Assembly: GCA_018303405.1 (NCBI GenBank)
Contig: JAGVYD010000002.1
Coordinates: forward strand, 1-60,504
Source of the DNA: Candidatus Woesearchaeota archaeon
Lineage (GTDB): Archaea; Nanobdellota; Nanobdellia; Woesearchaeales; JABMPP01
Direction: 5' to 3'
DNA length: 60,504 bases
The translations under genes and the position numbers were made by a program. How positions within the stretch are numbered: the stretch's first letter is position 1; the number at the start of each line of letters is the position of its first letter. Under the pieces are notes generated by a model. That model did no database searches and had not been told where the DNA came from. It saw only the letters and a program-made list of their open reading frames with translations. Of the stretch, positions 4,273-48,376 are shown one piece after another.

Positions 4273-5279
4273 AAATCATCAGCCCAGCTGCATCCAGGGC
4301 AAAAGCCCAATCACTGTCATCTATGCAGTCTTCTAAAAACAGGAATAAGAAGGGATTTGTTTTCACCATGATGGCCATCTTTTTTGTTATTGTTGCAATG
4401 ACAGCCTCCATCCTTTTCAGCAAATACACAGAGCGGAGCCAGGCCATTTCAATTGAATCGCGAGTTTTTACAATTAACAATTTCATCCATGATTTAGAAA
4501 GGGATATGTCGCGTGCATTATACATCGCCAGCTTCCGTGCCTTGCTTGGCATGACAAGCTACATGTCTGAAAATGGAACCTACATCACCAACCTGAGCGC
4601 AAACTTTGCAGAGCTTGTGCTGAATGGGACAATTTACAACCAAACAACCGAGCCTACCAATGATTCATATGTCACTCTATGGCTTGCCAAGGTCCAGCAG
4701 GAAGCCCAGGATATCGGAGTTACAATCGACGCATATAATTACAGCCTTTCTCTTGTGCAGCGTGAAACATGGAATCTGGAAATTGAGATGAATTTAACCC
4801 TTGTTGTGCAGGATGCGGCTGGCCTGGCGACCTGGACCAAGGACGACACAATCCGGACAACAATCCCAATCACTGGCCTGGAAGACCCTCTCTATACTGT
4901 TGGAAGCGACGGGCTGATCAGCAATATTATCATCCAAACCCCGTTTGAATTTTTTGTTAACCAGACTACCAGCAATGTATCGAATCTGCAGCAGCATGCA
5001 ATTAACAGCTACTACATCGAGGACACTGATGCTCCGAGCTATGTCATGAGGCTGCAGGGCTTATTTTCATCATCTTCATTTGGCATAGAAAGCACAGTTT
5101 ATTCCCTGAGCCTCGTGCCGCTGGGCCAATACAAGAACAAGTCAGTGGTAGACCATATCTACTGGAGCACCAGCAATCCGGCACACAATGCAATACAGGG
5201 CATGCCTTCCTGGTACAGGCTGGATAATTTAACGGGCCACTTTGACTCCTACGAAGTAAGTGACCTTGTCATAAACTGA
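4263..5279 (+). CDS. Membrane-anchored surface protein of the pilin operon
   Basis: 338 residues from GTG 4263. This start is chosen because GGAGGTGA at 4251-4258 sits 4 nt upstream, inside the end of the vWA gene; ATG 4323 is an alternative. A basic stretch (KNRNKKG) precedes a transmembrane helix at about 32-54, then a beta-rich, Asn-glycosylation-rich ectodomain. No known family recognised. It closes the five-gene operon and shares the N-in, single-helix topology of its neighbours. Confidence 0.6.
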   Translation: MAVKIISPAASRAKAQSLSSMQSSKNRNKKGFVFTMMAIFFVIVAMTASILFSKYTERSQAISIESRVFTINNFIHDLERDMSRALYIASFRALLGMTSYMSENGTYITNLSANFAELVLNGTIYNQTTEPTNDSYVTLWLAKVQQEAQDIGVTIDAYNYSLSLVQRETWNLEIEMNLTLVVQDAAGLATWTKDDTIRTTIPITGLEDPLYTVGSDGLISNIIIQTPFEFFVNQTTSNVSNLQQHAINSYYIEDTDAPSYVMRLQGLFSSSSFGIESTVYSLSLVPLGQYKNKSVVDHIYWSTSNPAHNAIQGMPSWYRLDNLTGHFDSYEVSDLVIN

Positions 5280-8632: not shown

Positions 8633-8782
8633 GTGAGCTTAAGTTTGTTCTAACATGGAAACTCCGATTTTAACGGTGTTAATGGCATTTTTACCTTGTT
8701 CCGCCCTGTTCCTCCTTGTTCCGGCATATTCCGGCGAAAATTATTATGCTGTTCCACCTTTCTACTGCCTACGCTAATAGTA

Positions 8783-8823
8783 AATTTATTAAAATGCAAA
8801 ATAATTTTTGCATAAACGGAGGT
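8783..8823 (+). promoter_or_regulatory. TATA-like box, palindromic operator candidate and ribosome site
   Basis: AAATTTATTAAA-type TATA sequence is followed by a perfect inverted repeat ATGCAAAA-TAAT-TTTTGCAT (8794-8813) at the expected transcription start, then GGAGGT at 8818-8823, 7 nt before the ATG at 8831. A protein bound to the palindrome would block initiation; as RNA it would be a small hairpin just before the ribosome site. Confidence 0.55.
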
Positions 8824-8830
8824 AAGCAAA

Positions 8831-10051
8831 ATGAAACTGAAGGATATATTGCTGCTCAGTGCGGTTGTTGCGGTGATGTTAATGCTGCCGCTGGCATTCG
8901 CTCAGGACGGCACAAATGAAACAGATGACAATGACTCGGATGCAAATGACACTTCTGATGTCAATGTCTCGGTCAATGTGACAATTGACACAAATGTCTC
9001 GGTCAATGTGACTGATACAAATACCACTGGCAATGCGACCATGGGGAACCAAACCAACCAGACTGGCATCAACCAGACCATTAATAACCAGACCGGTACC
9101 AACCAGACTGGCAACAATCAAACGCAGAATGAGACTGACGACGATTATGATGACGACACCCAGAATGAGACTTCCATAATGGGCAACTTGCACGGCGCAA
9201 GGGTCAGATTGCTCCAGCTTGAAAAATCGCTGACAAGGAACATCCTTGCAGGCTATGTGATTGTGGACGGAATCGAGGCGAGGAACCTGAGCGTCAATAC
9301 CACTGAGCTTAGGGCAATCCTGGCTGAGATGGAAATCCTCAGGGATGCTGTGCATGACACAGTCCCGCAGAACAATACTGCTGAGACTGCCCACCAGTTC
9401 GTGGAATTCAAGCACCAGGCAATTGATTTGTCCAAGGAATTCAGGGAAGCAGCCAGGGCAATTATAAATGGCCCGTTGAGGGAAGAATTCAAGGGCAGGA
9501 TAAGGCTAAAGCTTGATGATGACAGCTATTCCAGCATTTCAGAGCAGCTTAAGCTTGAGATTCGGGAGTACAATGCAAACCGGGTCAAGGAACTGCGGGA
9601 ATTGCTGAACGAGAACCTGGATGAGCTTGAAGACAGGATAAGGTCAGGAGAGCTTGATTCGGAAGAGATTAGGGAAATCGTCAAGAACAGGTTCAAGTCG
9701 CTGGAAAAGGACCTGAAAAAAGATGCCTTCTTTAACCTGAGGGAGGATTCTGCAAAATCAGCTGTCTTGAGCCTGGCCGCGCTTGAAAAGGCAAGGAAGG
9801 ATGACAAGATCCTCAGCCGGGAGCTGATACAATCCAGGAAAGACAATGCCAAGGATGCCCAGGCCAGGAAGCTCTTGGAGCTAAGGGAGAAGAAGCTTGA
9901 AAAGGAACAGGAAAGGCTGAACAAGGCGCAGGAAAAGCTGGCCGAGAAGCTGCAAAAACAAAATGGCAAGAACGGCAACAGTGGAAGCGATGATGACAAC
10001 GACGACGAAGATGATGACGACAATGGCAATGGCCGTTCAGGAAGGAGATGA
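8831..10051 (+). CDS. Secreted Asn-glycosylation-rich coiled-coil protein
   Basis: 406 residues. Signal peptide at 1-24 ending AFAQ. Residues about 27-115 are almost entirely sequons and acids (NVS, NVT, NQT, NET repeats), likely a densely N-glycosylated stalk. Residues about 120-385 are helical and charged, with strong heptad character towards the end (KLEKEQERLNKAQEKL). The C-terminus is an acidic, disordered tail ending in GRR. No enzyme motifs. Probably a cell-surface spacer or S-layer-associated protein; it shares an operon with the small lipoprotein downstream (11 bp gap). Confidence 0.7.
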   Translation: MKLKDILLLSAVVAVMLMLPLAFAQDGTNETDDNDSDANDTSDVNVSVNVTIDTNVSVNVTDTNTTGNATMGNQTNQTGINQTINNQTGTNQTGNNQTQNETDDDYDDDTQNETSIMGNLHGARVRLLQLEKSLTRNILAGYVIVDGIEARNLSVNTTELRAILAEMEILRDAVHDTVPQNNTAETAHQFVEFKHQAIDLSKEFREAARAIINGPLREEFKGRIRLKLDDDSYSSISEQLKLEIREYNANRVKELRELLNENLDELEDRIRSGELDSEEIREIVKNRFKSLEKDLKKDAFFNLREDSAKSAVLSLAALEKARKDDKILSRELIQSRKDNAKDAQARKLLELREKKLEKEQERLNKAQEKLAEKLQKQNGKNGNSGSDDDNDDEDDDDNGNGRSGRR

Positions 10052-10062
10052 GGTGAATCCAA

Positions 10063-10284
10063 ATGAAACTGACTAGCAACTTGCTGGCACTGCTGGTGGT
10101 CGCAGCTGTATTTGCTGGATGCACAACCCAGACCGGTGAGGAAAGCCCAACCCTTCCTGGAGATGACACCGCAGGAACCCAGGAGCCGGCTGTGACTCCA
10201 ACAGAGGAGACCCAGGCCTTGTCTGACATTGATTCCACAATTGTGGATGAGAACAGCGAGGTAGAAATAGGCGAGATGATTTAG
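10063..10284 (+). CDS. Small lipoprotein
   Basis: 73 residues with a signal peptide ending in a lipobox-like VFAGC, so Cys19 may be lipid-modified. The mature part is short, acidic and Thr/Pro-rich with no domain. A GGAG-like ribosome site overlaps the end of the previous gene. Confidence 0.6.
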   Translation: MKLTSNLLALLVVAAVFAGCTTQTGEESPTLPGDDTAGTQEPAVTPTEETQALSDIDSTIVDENSEVEIGEMI

Positions 10285-10345
10285 CATCTCGGTTTTTATT
10301 TTTTTACTTTTTATCTTATGCCTTTATCTTATGCTTTTTTATCTT
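10285..10345 (+). terminator. T-rich terminator between convergent genes
   Basis: Several T runs (up to 7) and three near-copies of TTTATCTTATGC occupy the space between convergent genes. T-runs of this kind are enough to end archaeal transcription; no strong stem is needed or seen. Confidence 0.5.
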
Positions 10346-34112: not shown

Positions 34113-34330
34113 TTCAATCCCCAACTGTGTAAATTTGCTTATTTTGGTATTTATAAATATTGCTGTTTTTGAGGAACTATAACCTCCTTATTTTTCTGTT
34201 TATCGACGAAGAATTTCGAAATAGGTGACTTGATCCGGGATAGTGCGCTGCCAGCGTAGAGAATACCCGAAAATACCGGAAAAATGTTGGGCATTCATCA
34301 GAAATAAATAATAAATCAAAAAAAAAGAAA

Positions 34331-34362
34331 CACCTCGCCAAAGCGAGGCAACGAGTCCATCA
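34331..34362 (+). repeat. Partial copy of the tRNA-Leu anticodon and variable arms
   Basis: CACCTCGCCAAAGCGAGGCA then ACGAGTCCATC resembles 34436-34467 of the tRNA-Leu gene, with the anticodon arm changed to a perfect 6-bp stem (CCTCGC/GCGAGG). No acceptor or T arm. The surrounding spacer 34113-34410 contains no gene. Confidence 0.55.
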
Positions 34363-34410: not shown

Positions 34411-34545
34411 GGCGGAGAAGTCTAGCCAGGTTTGACACCTCGCTCAAGACGAGGCGGCGAGTCCATCGCCTTGCGGGTTCGAAACTCAAAGAGCGAAAAA
34501 TTCGCAGTGGATGGAAGCGCTGCAACGGAATTCCCGTCTCCGCCG
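34411..34545 (+). tRNA. tRNA-Leu (CAA) with a 48-nt intron in the T loop
   Basis: Acceptor GGCGGAG/CTCCGCC is perfect; anticodon arm CCTCG-CTCAAGA-CGAGG gives anticodon CAA; long variable arm GGCGA/TCGCC as in type II tRNAs. The T arm starts GCGGG-TTCGAA and resumes at T-CCCGT after an insertion at 34484-34531. Splicing gives the standard loop TTCGAAT. A bulge-helix-bulge fits exactly: helix TTCG:CGGA with bulges AAA and ATT, cut after the second base of each, i.e. between positions 59 and 60. Oddities: A at position 8 and G at 73, whereas Leu tRNAs normally have U8 and A73. Confidence 0.82.
34484..34531 (+). other. Predicted T-loop intron of tRNA-Leu
   Basis: 48 nt between T-loop positions 59 and 60, including its own GCGAA/TTCGC hairpin. 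Removal needs the archaeal tRNA endonuclease with relaxed specificity for non-canonical positions. Confidence 0.75.
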
Positions 34546-34594
34546 CACAAAACCCATAAATTTATTAAGCAACTTTTTTGTTCTGACCATGCAC

Positions 34595-34667
34595 AGCCCC
34601 GTAGTGTAGCGGCCAATCATCCGACCCTCTGGAGGTTGGGACCCAGGTTCGAATCCTGGCGGGGCTA
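34595..34667 (+). tRNA. tRNA-Gln (CTG)
   Basis: Acceptor AGCCCCG/CGGGGCT (perfect), T8, anticodon arm CGACC-CTCTGGA-GGTTG (anticodon CTG, reading CAG), T arm CCAGG-TTCGAAT-CCTGG, discriminator A. CCA is not encoded. No intron. Its last 11 nt and the next 26 nt recur downstream at 35466 and 36801. Confidence 0.95.
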
Positions 34668-34693
34668 TAAAAACATAACTCGGAGAAACAAGC
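34657..34693 (+). repeat. tRNA-Gln 3'-end repeat, original copy (R0)
   Basis: TGGCGGGGCTATAAAAACAT then AACTCGGAGAAA. The first part is the tRNA acceptor end. It resembles an attachment-site core at a tRNA 3' end. Related copies are at 35466, 36594 and 36801. Confidence 0.75.
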
Positions 34694-34774
34694 TATTAGT
34701 CGTGTTCTACAAACCAAAACATTTATATATAAATATGTCTATTAGATATATTATTATATCAATATTATATAAAA

Positions 34775-35056
34775 ATGACACAAGCAACACAATCTTTGGT
34801 AACAGAACAAATCAAGCATTCTCCTACATTAAGCACTGTCTTAATGGTGGAAGATACATTAAAAAATGGCGGTTTGGTGAAACTGGCAGAATTAAAAAGA
34901 AAACTGCCAAGGAAGGTTATGCACCAAACATTGTTGCAAATACTTGATTATCTGCAATTAAGCGGAAAAATATTAATGGGGACAAAAGGGATTCTTTGGG
35001 TGTTTGCTGAAAGAAAAGAATTAGATGCATTTATAAATAGAGGAACTGAAGTATGA
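34775..35056 (+). CDS. Winged-helix antitoxin-like protein
   Basis: 93 residues. A winged helix (VKLAELKRKLPRKVMHQTLL then YLQLSGKILMGTKGILWVF). It overlaps the next gene by 4 bp (ATGA). TATA box TTTATATATAAA lies near 34720. In this place and pairing it is most likely the antitoxin and repressor of a RelE-like toxin. Confidence 0.68.
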   Translation: MTQATQSLVTEQIKHSPTLSTVLMVEDTLKNGGLVKLAELKRKLPRKVMHQTLLQILDYLQLSGKILMGTKGILWVFAERKELDAFINRGTEV

Positions 35057-35412
35057 ACAAGGTTACAAGGGTCATTCTTATAGATAAAGCTGATTTAGAA
35101 TATAAACTACTAAACGAATTAATAGGAAAGCAGATAAAGGAAGGGAAGAAAAATACAGATGAAATGCAGCTGCTAAGATCAATCCGGCAGAAGATTGATT
35201 TCATTAAAAGCAACCCATTCTATGGAGACAATATCCCAAAAGAGCAGATACCGAAAGAGTATAAGGTGCAAAATCTCTGGAGGGTTGAGCTTTCGCAATT
35301 CTGGAGGATGCTATATACTATCAAAGGTGACCAGATTGAGATAATATGCTTTGTCCTTGATATTTTAGACCATAAAAATTACGATAAAAAATTTGGCTAT
35401 AAGAAAAAGTAA
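35053..35412 (+). CDS. RelE/ParE-superfamily toxin-like protein
   Basis: 119 residues. N-terminal helices followed by a small beta sheet with NLWRVELSQFWRMLYTIKGD and a C-terminal VLDILDHKNYDKKFGYKK, the usual strand-turn and basic tail of RelE-type ribosome-dependent RNases. Translationally coupled to the upstream winged-helix gene. The pair occupies the whole first interval between tRNA-Gln 3'-end copies. Confidence 0.72.
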   Translation: MNKVTRVILIDKADLEYKLLNELIGKQIKEGKKNTDEMQLLRSIRQKIDFIKSNPFYGDNIPKEQIPKEYKVQNLWRVELSQFWRMLYTIKGDQIEIICFVLDILDHKNYDKKFGYKKK

Positions 35413-35418
35413 TTATCT

Positions 35419-35498
35419 GGAAGATTTTCGTGTTCCCAAAAAATATACAAATTTGCCCAGCATTTTGGCGGGGCTATTAAAGCATAGCTCTGAGAAAA
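35419..35498 (+). repeat. tRNA-Gln 3'-end repeat copy R1 with extended left arm
   Basis: 35419-35481 matches 36545-36607 at about 58 of 63 positions (starting GGAAGATTTTCGTGTTCCC). From 35466 it matches the tRNA-Gln 3' end and downstream flank (TGGCGGGGCTATTAAAGCAT). It separates the RelE-like cassette from the HEPN-MNT cassette. Confidence 0.75.
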
Positions 35499-35510
35499 AA
35501 CCAAATACCC

Positions 35511-35990
35511 TCACTTGAGGAGTAATTTTGCTTTTTTATTATATCCTTCAATTTCAGTTTTTTTGATTTTGTCAATGAAATTCTTTATCAGGCTGTTAAA
35601 CTCTTCCGCCTCTTTCACCCCTTCTTGTACATCTTTTTCAGTTGCCTTGAATTCTGTGTAGTATTGCTTGTCTATTCTTTCCTTCTTTGCATTTGTGATT
35701 GAAGTATTGTCAATTCTGAACAATTCTTTAAGCAGAATGATTGTTCCGGCATGATTTTCAGACTTGATCCCGCATCTGTAGAGAAGCGCAAGTGCCGAAT
35801 AATACATTGAATAGTATGTCAATGCGACAGCATCATCAAAATTGTGTATGCCTGACACAATTTTTGCGGACAGTAATGACTTTTGGGATTTTTCCATATA
35901 GGAATTTGCAACCACCTCGCTTGGTTCAACAATCTTAATCCTGCCTTCTTTTTGTAAAGTTTTAATGAACGAGTTCAAAGTACCTGTCAA
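35511..35990 (-). CDS. HEPN-domain protein (COG1895 type)
   Basis: 159 residues. Same layout as the protein at 17918-18403: SLLSAKIVSGIHNFDDAVAL then YSMYYSALALLYRCGIKSEN, and later KERIDKQYYTE. Overlaps its nucleotidyltransferase partner by 29 bp. Third HEPN-MNT module of the window and occupant of the second tRNA-Gln repeat interval. Confidence 0.8.
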   Translation of the reverse strand: MTGTLNSFIKTLQKEGRIKIVEPSEVVANSYMEKSQKSLLSAKIVSGIHNFDDAVALTYYSMYYSALALLYRCGIKSENHAGTIILLKELFRIDNTSITNAKKERIDKQYYTEFKATEKDVQEGVKEAEEFNSLIKNFIDKIKKTEIEGYNKKAKLLLK

Positions 35991-36495
35991 CTCCTTTTAT
36001 GATAATGTGACTTTTTATTATTTCTTTGATAAGGGGCATTTCTTTATCAAATTTGCCTATTTTTATGCTCAGCTTTGAGTCTGAAAATTCTATTAATTTT
36101 TTTATCTCTTTGTTTTCAGTTTCCAGGTATAAATCAATATCGCTGTCCTTGTCAATGCTCATTTTAGCATATGAGCCAAAAATCAATGCGAGATTGATTT
36201 CTTCATTTGCCTGGACTTTTTCTATTATTTGCCTTAGCCGCGGATATTTTTTAATGATCTCTAGAATTTTGTAAAGTTCAACGATTTTTCGGTATTCGTG
36301 GGATTCAAGCGATTTTCTTATAAAGTAAACCTTGTTTCTTCCTTCTTCCCTATAATCAAGAATATTTTGTTTTTCAAGTTCTGTGGCTTTTCGTGCAATT
36401 GTGGTTTGATTTGTACGCAATGCTTTTGCTAATCCCCTAATATGGTTATCCTGTTTTTCCAGCTCTTGAAATATATTGTAATTTATTTGTGACAT
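35962..36495 (-). CDS. Winged-helix MNT-type nucleotidyltransferase
   Basis: 177 residues from ATG 36495, about 30 nt after a minus-strand ATTTATATAT box; upstream in-frame ATGs would be before the expected transcript start. Winged helix (GLAKALRTNQTTIARKATEL), then ALIFGSYAKMSIDKDSDIDL with intact metal-binding acids. Predicted antitoxin of the overlapping HEPN gene. Confidence 0.82.
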   Translation of the reverse strand: MSQINYNIFQELEKQDNHIRGLAKALRTNQTTIARKATELEKQNILDYREEGRNKVYFIRKSLESHEYRKIVELYKILEIIKKYPRLRQIIEKVQANEEINLALIFGSYAKMSIDKDSDIDLYLETENKEIKKLIEFSDSKLSIKIGKFDKEMPLIKEIIKSHIIIKGVDRYFELVH

Positions 36496-36515
36496 ATGTA
36501 ACATAAATATTACAT
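36496..36515. promoter_or_regulatory. Inverted repeat at the MNT start, operator candidate
   Basis: ATGTAACATAAATATTACAT has perfect 6-bp arms and lies between the TATA box and start codon of the MNT gene, a natural site for autorepression by its winged helix. Confidence 0.45.
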
Positions 36516-36544
36516 TGATATATAAATATTTCGGTTTTGTCACC

Positions 36545-36607
36545 GGAGGATTTTCGTGTTCCCAAAAAATAGACAAAACTGCCCAGCATTTGGGCGGGGC
36601 TATTAAA
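36545..36607 (+). repeat. tRNA-Gln 3'-end repeat copy R2
   Basis: Second copy of the 63-bp unit, including CCCAGCATTTGGGCGGGGCT. It closes the HEPN-MNT cassette. A weaker copy (CCTGGCGGGACTAT) follows at about 36661-36674. Confidence 0.7.
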
Positions 36608-36800
36608 CGAAGTTTAAAGTCCAGACATGGTCACGAATGTAGCGAAGCGAAATGACTCGACCTGGCGGGACTATCCAAGTAATGCATTAAGCCTCGTTCG
36701 TGCAATAGCGAGGATTTGTGGATTCATTCCATGAGCGTGGTATGGCTTTATGCCATACTATTTTTTACGAGATTTTTTGTTAAAAAATCTCTTTGAATCA
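36608..36800. repeat. Hairpin-rich, gene-free interval with module C copy 3
   Basis: CCTCG/CGAGG stem near 36692; outer arms GTGGATTCA and TGAATCAC; GTATGGC-TTTAT-GCCATAC (36740-36758); and GAGATTTTTT-GTT-AAAAAATCTC (36769-36791). The last two stems are homologous to 47960-48010 and 48121-48170. No ORF of note. Confidence 0.72.
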
Positions 36801-36832
36801 CGGCGGGGCTATTAAACATAAACCTGAGAAAA
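36801..36832 (+). repeat. tRNA-Gln 3'-end repeat copy R3
   Basis: CGGCGGGGCTATTAAACATA then AACCTGAGAAAA; keeps the flank of R0 better than R2 does. It is the right boundary of the repeat array. Confidence 0.7.
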
Positions 36833-47748: not shown

Positions 47749-47844
47749 CGTTTGCATGGAGTTCAGGGGATTGAGCGAAGCGAAATCCCCTCAAGACTAA
47801 TTCAAGTATCAAATGATCGTGTCATTTGCTCCGCTAGTGCAGTC
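47749..47844 (+). repeat. Module A copy 1, ending in a tRNA-Glu 5' fragment
   Basis: 96 bp matching 48281-48376 except the loop of one hairpin (GAGCGAAGCG versus GAGCTTTGCG, between GGGGATT and AATCCCC arms) and one base near the end. Its last 17 nt (GCTCCGCTAGTGCAGTC) correspond to the first bases of tRNA-Glu. The preceding 47575-47748 holds the DoxX promoter and no gene. Confidence 0.8.
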
Positions 47845-47923
47845 AACGGATAGCCTTTTAACAAAGGCTATCATCCAAAAATGTCCTTTCTCCGAAAGGA
47901 CGGATTTGCTTGCGCAAATCAAC
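47828..47923 (+). repeat. Module B copy 1: tRNA-Glu 5' fragment plus triple hairpin
   Basis: After GCTCCGCTAGTGCAGTC come three stems: GATAGCCTTT/AAAGGCTATC (47849-47872), GTCCTTTC-TCC-GAAAGGAC (47883-47901), and GATTTGC-TTGC-GCAAATC (47903-47920). Copies at 48169-48264 and, without the tRNA part, 30874-30971. Confidence 0.8.
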
Positions 47924-47951
47924 GTATAGCAATCATCTCGATTACCAGTAA

Positions 47952-48010
47952 ATTGCGTCGAGGGACTTTATGTCCCTCTTGTTTTTACCAGATTTTTTTA
48001 AAAAATCTGC
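47952..48010 (+). repeat. Module C copy 1: two hairpins
   Basis: GAGGGAC-TTTAT-GTCCCTC (47960-47978) then CAGATTTTTT/AAAAAATCTG. Followed by CCGCGGAGC, which contains the seven 3' acceptor bases of tRNA-Glu. Confidence 0.78.
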
Positions 48011-48013
48011 CGC

Positions 48014-48070
48014 GGAGCTGACCTCAGCTCGCACGGAAGGTAGGGAGACGTTCCTTCGGAAGTCTCCCGA
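48014..48070 (+). repeat. Two further perfect stems between modules
   Basis: GAGCTGA-CC-TCAGCTC near 48015-48030 and GGGAGAC...GTCTCCC with an inner TTCC/GGAA near 48043-48068. Not found elsewhere in the window. Confidence 0.6.
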
Positions 48071-48111
48071 ACTGCGTCACAGAACGGAGTCATGGGATTA
48101 GAATGATAGCG

Positions 48112-48170
48112 AATTGCGTCGAGAGGCTTTATGCCTCTCTTGTTTTTACCAGATTTTTTTTAAAAATCTG
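48112..48170 (+). repeat. Module C copy 2
   Basis: GAGAGGC-TTTAT-GCCTCTC (48121-48139) and CAGATTTTT/AAAAATCTG. Same flanks as copy 1 (AATTGCGTC left, TTGTTTTTAC between stems). Runs directly into the next tRNA-Glu 5' fragment. Confidence 0.78.
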
Positions 48171-48264
48171 CTCCGCTAGTGCAGTCAACGGATAGCCTTT
48201 TAACAAAGGCTATCATCCAAAAATGTCCTTTCTCCGAAAGGACGGATTTGCTCACGCAAATCAA
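48169..48264 (+). repeat. Module B copy 2
   Basis: Same as 47828-47923 apart from the loop of the third stem (TCAC for TTGC). Begins with the tRNA-Glu-like GCTCCGCTAGTGCAGTC. Confidence 0.8.
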
Positions 48265-48280
48265 GTTATAATATTCATAA

Positions 48281-48376
48281 CGTTTGCATGGAGTTCAGGG
48301 GATTGAGCTTTGCGAAATCCCCTCAAGACTAATTCAAGTATCAAATGATCGTGTCATTTGCTCCGCTAGTGTAGTC
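48281..48376 (+). repeat. Module A copy 2, running into the real tRNA-Glu
   Basis: The last 17 nt are the first bases of the intact tRNA-Glu gene, so this is the chromosomal context from which copy 1 derives or vice versa. Confidence 0.8.

Follow-up and report, generated by a model that had tools for sequence, protein, structure and literature searches.

Copies of a tRNA-Gln 3' end bound small predicted toxin-antitoxin cassettes in a Woesearchaeota archaeon

The tRNA-Gln(CTG) locus

The window analyzed here is a stretch of 60,504 nt (contig JAGVYD010000002.1, referred to as C2, of assembly GCA_018303405.1) from a Candidatus Woesearchaeota archaeon whose 1.6-Mb genome is 95% complete in 23 contigs. 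It contains a tRNA-Gln(CTG) gene (34595-34667, + strand; detected by ARAGORN and Rfam) behind which copies of the tRNA 3' end are interspersed with two predicted toxin-antitoxin operons and a gene-less segment. The 3' end itself, TGGCGGGGCTAT, occupies 34657-34668 (R0) and recurs on the + strand at 35466-35477 (R1, 12 nt exact), 36593-36603 (R2, 11 nt exact), and 36799-36812 (R3, 11 nt exact), with a degenerate copy at 36661-36674 that carries 1 mismatch in 14. The 11-mer GGCGGGGCTAT starts at 34658, 35467, 36593, and 36802, always on the + strand, and is found nowhere else in the 60.5-kb window; a one-mismatch core, GGCGGGACTAT, lies at 36664 on the same strand. An earlier, sequence-only reading of this DNA had placed copies at 35466, around 36661, and in the region of 36801, all of which are borne out by exact or near-exact matches, while the third core starts at 36593 and not at 36594 as it had given.

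Allowing up to two mismatches, TGGCGGGGCTAT has 10 matches in the window where 4.6 are expected, and the five matches with zero or one mismatch are all on the + strand within the 2.2 kb of 34657-36812. Similarity extends beyond the 11-mer: R0 and R1 share a stretch of 42 nt with 81% identity, and R1 and R2 one of 63 nt with 92% identity, 48 nt of which are upstream of the tail (BLAST E value 1.8e-20). The array is real and its repeats are not a product of chance, since fortuitous GC-rich similarity is ruled out both by these searches and by the masked upstream/downstream control presented below. Several direct repeats of a 3' end on one strand, downstream of an intact tRNA, are also a feature that the locus shares with accretion arrays.

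Gene content of the cassettes

The two coding cassettes, bounded by the repeats, are poor in GC compared with the window (32% and 33% vs. 45%). Cassette 1 (34669-35477, + strand, 809 bp) encodes a 93-residue putative antitoxin (34775-35056) and a 119-residue putative toxin (35053-35412), both on the + strand, in open reading frames (ORFs) that overlap by 4 bp. Pfam links the toxin weakly to YoeB (E value 0.0017), and the best Foldseek matches of its AlphaFold model (mean pLDDT 81) are YoeB and ParE structures, suggesting a YoeB-like member of the RelE/ParE superfamily. The 93-residue protein has no Pfam match, and the winged-helix label it carries stems from the first reading; its assignment follows from co-occurrence, as it stands beside the toxin in 29 of the 29 homologous loci examined. 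By predicted fold and conserved adjacent partner, cassette 1 qualifies as a type II toxin-antitoxin system whose toxicity is a prediction, in agreement with the winged-helix/RelE-like pair first proposed.

Cassette 2 (35478-36603, 1126 bp) carries its genes on the - strand. A HEPN protein, the putative toxin (35511-35990), is recognized by Pfam (E value 3.4e-8) and by similarity to PDB entry 2hsb (E value 2e-4). The R and H of its RCGIKSENH motif stand 7 residues apart (the catalytic motif being Rx4-6H), and the protein is of a UPF0332-like subtype. Its partner (35962-36504), a winged-helix and MNT nucleotidyltransferase protein serving as putative antitoxin, matches Pfam Polbeta (E value 2.7e-9) and PADLOC PDC-M05A (E value 1.7e-12), with a sub-threshold match to MntA, and its translation displays a GS...DxD-type motif, GSYAKMSIDKDSDID (GSYAK...DSDID). 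The HEPN and MNT domains and this last motif make cassette 2 a predicted HEPN-MNT (type VII) toxin-antitoxin system with putative roles for both proteins, as the oppositely directed HEPN-MNT pair of the sequence-only reading had anticipated.

The cargo of the two cassettes is unrelated and oppositely oriented, yet their right ends are alike: 35419-35481, which includes R1, is 92% identical over 63 nt to 36545-36607, which includes R2 (both on the + strand). In cassette 1 this end comes after the toxin gene, whereas in cassette 2 it lies before the MNT gene; it is therefore part of the cassette rather than of a gene. In the whole genome it is present at these two places only, and the remaining matches are short and weak, ruling out a wider family. 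An integron attC site is likewise ruled out, because the 45 nt preceding R1 and R2 fold no better than shuffled sequences. No terminal inverted repeats were seen on the Gln cassettes.

Interval 3 (36604-36812, + strand) belongs to a separate class, that of hairpin elements. It holds no ORF of at least 50 residues wholly inside it and is more structured than its shuffles (z -2.6), so the earlier description of it as hairpins only stands. Within it lies a two-hairpin element, H (36735-36791, + strand), delimited by a genome search and alignment of the copies, in which a stem GxGGC-TTTATG-GCCxC is followed by a GATTTTT/AAAAATC hairpin. About 12 copies of H exist in the genome (the one in the window and loci L171-L187), nearly all of which abut a tRNA 5' end, a tail copy or, when inverted, a tRNA 3' end. 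No Rfam family matched the hairpins. Many short intervals (50-200 nt) are gene-less too. A hairpin before every repeat is ruled out as a general rule, as it is true of the short gene-less units and not of the coding cassettes; the sequence preceding repeats has a mean fold z of -0.9 vs. -0.4 for controls (p 0.05).

Tail copies and integrases elsewhere in the genome

Among 37 tRNAs scanned, downstream tail copies were detected at tRNA-Cys (two), Phe (four), Leu-CAA, Ser-GGA, Glu-TTC (two), Arg-CCT, and Ala-GGC, and a weak one at Pro-CGG. The tRNA-Cys units hold an RHH-like (DUF2683)/ParE pair and a reversed MNT gene with a HEPN-like partner. Beside the DUF2683/ParE pair, the first of these units (locus L046, contig C9) also contains a 130-residue ORF at 4741-5133 that has no Pfam, NCBIfam, or PADLOC match. 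Behind tRNA-Phe, an integrase-bearing element of 9 kb with a perfect 40-nt repeat is followed by three integrase-free units that encode, among others, MNT together with a HEPN-like partner, and TrmB together with ParE; the tRNA-Ala-GGC unit encodes a Fic protein. The genome has three ParE-family matches, two inside tail-bounded units and the third just past the last Phe repeat, and 15 NTP_transf_2 matches, 3 of which are inside such units.

Six tyrosine integrases exceed the Pfam cut-offs (five PF00589 and one PF16795), all directly downstream of tRNAs. At Phe and Leu-CAA, the integrase ORF crosses the tRNA tail, so that the catalytic part starts at the tRNA and the N-terminal part ends in the distal copy. 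Judged by their reading frames, which continue through the tail at both ends, these two loci have the suicidal-integrase arrangement, unlike the Gln array. Integrase-made arrays therefore exist in this genome, and for the Gln array an integrase origin may be inferred. Two further Phe copies are preceded by peptides 41-68% identical to the RHH-like N-terminal integrase peptide of the Leu element, and Cys cassette 1, at its R1, has a 38-nt match to the integrase N-terminal relic. No such relic was found in the arrays of relatives. The earlier remark that no integrase is seen holds for the Gln array, while the six tyrosine integrases adjoin other tRNAs and one is within the tRNA-Phe array. These tRNA-adjacent integrases, and the mixture of an integrase element with integrase-free units at Phe, explain in principle the absence of an integrase at Gln.

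A further locus, L070 (C14:16675-20617), has a XerA-like integrase behind tRNA-Ser(CGA), then HEPN-like and MNT-like ORFs and a Fic-like ORF; no tail copy of this tRNA occurs within 20 kb.

Related genomes

Homologues were searched in 353 genomes of the order, and all the relatives compared belong to other families, the TFIIB of the source genome being at most 61% identical to its best GTDB matches. Homologues of the toxin are present in 204 and of MNT in 266 of the 353 genomes. Toxin identity across families reaches 78%, where the general transcription factor TFIIB attains at most about 61%.

In some relatives, the same or similar modules are arranged differently behind tRNAs. Genome G278 has the same toxin pair, inverted, behind its tRNA-Gln(CTG), followed by a 17-nt tail copy, a BRO-like protein, and a second tail copy. 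Behind the tRNA-Glu(TTC) of G042, a BRO-like protein precedes an MNT-HEPN pair, which is closer to cassette 2 than any other homologue, and copies of the tRNA-Glu tail stand at +986 and +2110; the BRO label in both genomes comes from reading the sequence rather than from a family scan. The tRNA-Gln of G035 is followed by PIN plus AbrB-like genes and that of G029 by a winged helix-turn-helix protein plus DUF6036 with a duplicated tail, then by MNT plus a HEPN-like partner. In this last array (locus L188), a 258-nt block consisting of the tRNA-Gln 3' part and the end of the DUF6036 gene is duplicated at 8725-8982 and 10043-10300, the copies being 1318 bp apart and 94% identical. Methyltransferase-like and TrmB-like proteins are encoded behind a tRNA-Glu in G027. 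Most relatives have no tail copies at their tRNA-Gln genes.

Independent acquisition is suggested by the differences between genomes in the orientation of the modules and in the tRNA behind which they stand. Other cassettes between repeats of the same tRNA, sought as a check on the sequence-only reading, occur at tRNA-Gln in G278, G035, and G029 and at tRNA-Glu in G042, and this reshuffling supports its proposal of serial cassette insertion at one tRNA 3' end.

Position of the copies

The distribution of tail copies was assessed with 12-mers of tRNA ends from the source genome and its relatives pooled, with equal flanks of up to 3 kb and other tRNAs masked. This upstream/downstream control was preferred to one using mismatched tRNAs, which was inflated by similar tails and neighboring arrays. 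The 3'-end 12-mers recur downstream of 16 of 88 tRNAs and upstream of none (0/88), and the 5'-end 12-mers upstream of 11 of 88 and downstream of none (0/88). An independent sample gave 9/51 vs. 0/51. In a set of 151 tRNAs of the order, copies of the 3' end are confined to the downstream side (27 tRNAs) and copies of the 5' end to the upstream side (16 tRNAs); the 5' copies mostly end at nt 13-19 and the 3' copies mostly begin 13-22 nt before the 3' end. Mapped on the tRNA sequence, these break points fall in the D and T arms. The T loop is the insertion site reported for the ssrA islands of Dehalococcoides (PMC3146451).

In the window itself, the first 13-18 nt of tRNA-Glu(CTC) are repeated twice upstream (47829 and 48168) with strong hairpins between them, the region covering 47829-48360. 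At five loci of relatives (L090, L098, L108, L112, and L127), all 5 tRNAs with an upstream 5' copy also carry a downstream 3' copy, as if an intact tRNA were nested in a split one of the same kind; this nesting was not seen in the window's own genome. Just upstream of the Gln array, a tRNA-Leu(CAA)-like gene (34414-34552), not called by ARAGORN, is recognized after removing about 40-45 nt from its T arm, and a stretch at 34330-34361 partly duplicates its anticodon and variable arm.

Relation to known systems

Arrays of this kind are already known, as tandem ssrA islands (PMC3146451) and as additive islands with tRNA tails (PMC10872708). In Dehalococcoides, several islands stand behind one tRNA-like gene, with repeats of about 20 bp of its 3' end and many repeats per strain (PMC3146451). 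The Gln units resemble them as tandem units bounded by 3'-end repeats. However, the bacterial islands are kilobases long and many have their own integration module (PMC3146451), whereas the archaeal Gln units are single operons of 0.8-1.1 kb without an integrase. In the additive flexible genomic islands of Methylophilaceae, copies of the last 20 nt of tRNA-Lys lie between blocks of variable content, and the smallest island is 330 bp long (PMC10872708). These islands are bacterial and their cargo is mostly unknown; the arrays described here comprise toxin-antitoxin, BRO, and gene-less hairpin units and involve many tRNAs and either tRNA end.

Among archaeal systems, the gene of a suicidal tyrosine integrase holds the attachment site and is split upon integration, and excision then needs an integrase in trans (PMC8371274). 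The split integrases at tRNA-Leu and tRNA-Phe are of this type, while the Gln units contain no integrase piece. Archaeal integrons and attC clusters without integrase are likewise built of small cassettes that carry toxin-antitoxin genes and have a recombination site on one side (PMC9668308). Here the site is a tRNA tail instead of a folded attC, and the cassettes are in both orientations. Casposons and tandem archaeal integrated elements also target tRNA or protein-coding genes and can stack (PMC6563490). The arrays described here differ from casposons in that Cas1 was not found in the five array-carrying genomes and terminal inverted repeats were not seen on the Gln cassettes. Units made only of a toxin-antitoxin system, and copies at both tRNA ends, were not found for DPANN archaea in the literature searched.

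Origin of the array

These observations are best accounted for by tyrosine integrases that inserted units one after another at the 3' end of the tRNA, an account that, taken in general, is probable. In its specific form, which has about an even chance of being correct, the Gln array would consist of tandem small non-autonomous cassettes moved as minimal units by an integrase acting in trans. Each unit would comprise one toxin-antitoxin operon and a recombination site made of the last tRNA bases and the upstream arm, the 48 nt common to cassettes 1 and 2. A tyrosine recombinase could be supplied in trans by the tRNA-targeting elements elsewhere in the genome, and insertion would proceed via a crossover in the T arm or 3' end of the tRNA. 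The tRNA would thereby be restored and the former 3' end pushed to the far side, allowing successive units to stack, and the toxin-antitoxin cargo may guard the units against loss. Four points of this account are inferred: that one of these integrases handled the Gln units, that it worked in trans, that the units already had their present small size when they moved, and that toxicity keeps them.

Several results weigh against this interpretation. The Gln array contains neither an integrase nor an integrase relic. The 63-nt end has no credible copy in the 352 other genomes of the order. Furthermore, tRNA tails are absent from 18 of the 20 homologous loci inspected and only 2/20 are in arrays, so the modules are not tRNA-specific and also spread by other ways; confinement of the toxin-antitoxin homologues to tRNAs is thereby ruled out. 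Finally, Phe and possibly Cys units retain integrase relics, which fits erosion better than the entry of minimal cassettes. As to the first point, integrase-free units have been described in tRNA and tmRNA accretion arrays, so the lack of an integrase lowers the case for counting the Gln array among them and does not exclude it.

The erosion just mentioned would make the units remnants of larger integrated elements, such as archaeal plasmids or viruses with suicidal integrases, that were inserted serially at the tRNA and then lost everything save the attachment sites and the toxin-antitoxin operon, whose loss would be harmful. Two integrase-free tRNA-Phe units indeed end in an N-terminal integrase relic, the two being about 40-68% identical to each other and to that of the Leu element, the 38-nt match of Cys cassette 1 is of the same nature, and all units are compact and mostly toxin-antitoxin. 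The units at Gln and in G278, G042, and G035 nonetheless lack relics and have ends close to the operon, dead remnants would not keep intact cores under selection, and the BRO cargo is not an obvious addiction gene, leaving this origin somewhat unlikely. Target-site duplication by a transposase or casposase at tRNA ends, with survival only where the tRNA is regenerated, might account for duplications of 11-25 nt that lie at both tRNA ends and only outward of the gene, and for the hairpin elements that adjoin many of the short ones. It is improbable given the lack of terminal inverted repeats on the Gln cassettes, the integrase frames that read through the Phe and Leu repeats, and the clustering of break points in the D and T arms, and a casposon origin in particular is ruled out by the absence of Cas1 from all five array-carrying genomes (0/5). 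Tandem duplication of tRNA genes followed by decay, with toxin-antitoxin genes present by chance in permissive tRNA flanks, has precedents in the true tandem tRNA copies of relatives (loci L003 and L025) and in tRNA-Ser variable-arm fragments downstream in loci L100 and L112, and it agrees with the location of most toxin-antitoxin homologues elsewhere. Decay, however, is not expected to spare the outward end every time, as the two counts of zero in the reverse arrangement would demand, and it leaves the 63-nt end common to two unrelated cassettes unexplained, which makes this explanation very improbable.

Serial insertion of cassettes could be extended to Woesearchaeota in general. Their tRNA genes would then be integron-like docking platforms at both ends, where single-operon cassettes (toxin-antitoxin, BRO, Fic) and gene-less hairpin cassettes enter the T arm on the 3' side or the D arm on the 5' side, the tRNA being restored each time, and are moved in trans by the integrases of unrelated elements. 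This extension is speculative and, at present, unlikely.

If cassettes do insert at tRNA ends, the stacking of minimal units behind tRNAs would be a way in which the very small genomes of uncultured DPANN archaea acquire toxin-antitoxin genes and hold on to them. This would add an integron-like capture route in which tRNA tails are the docking sites, and tRNA tail copies would provide a simple signature by which cassettes could be recognized in any genome. The abundance of tRNA-end copies that flank the tRNA genes of these archaea on either side also calls for an explanation.

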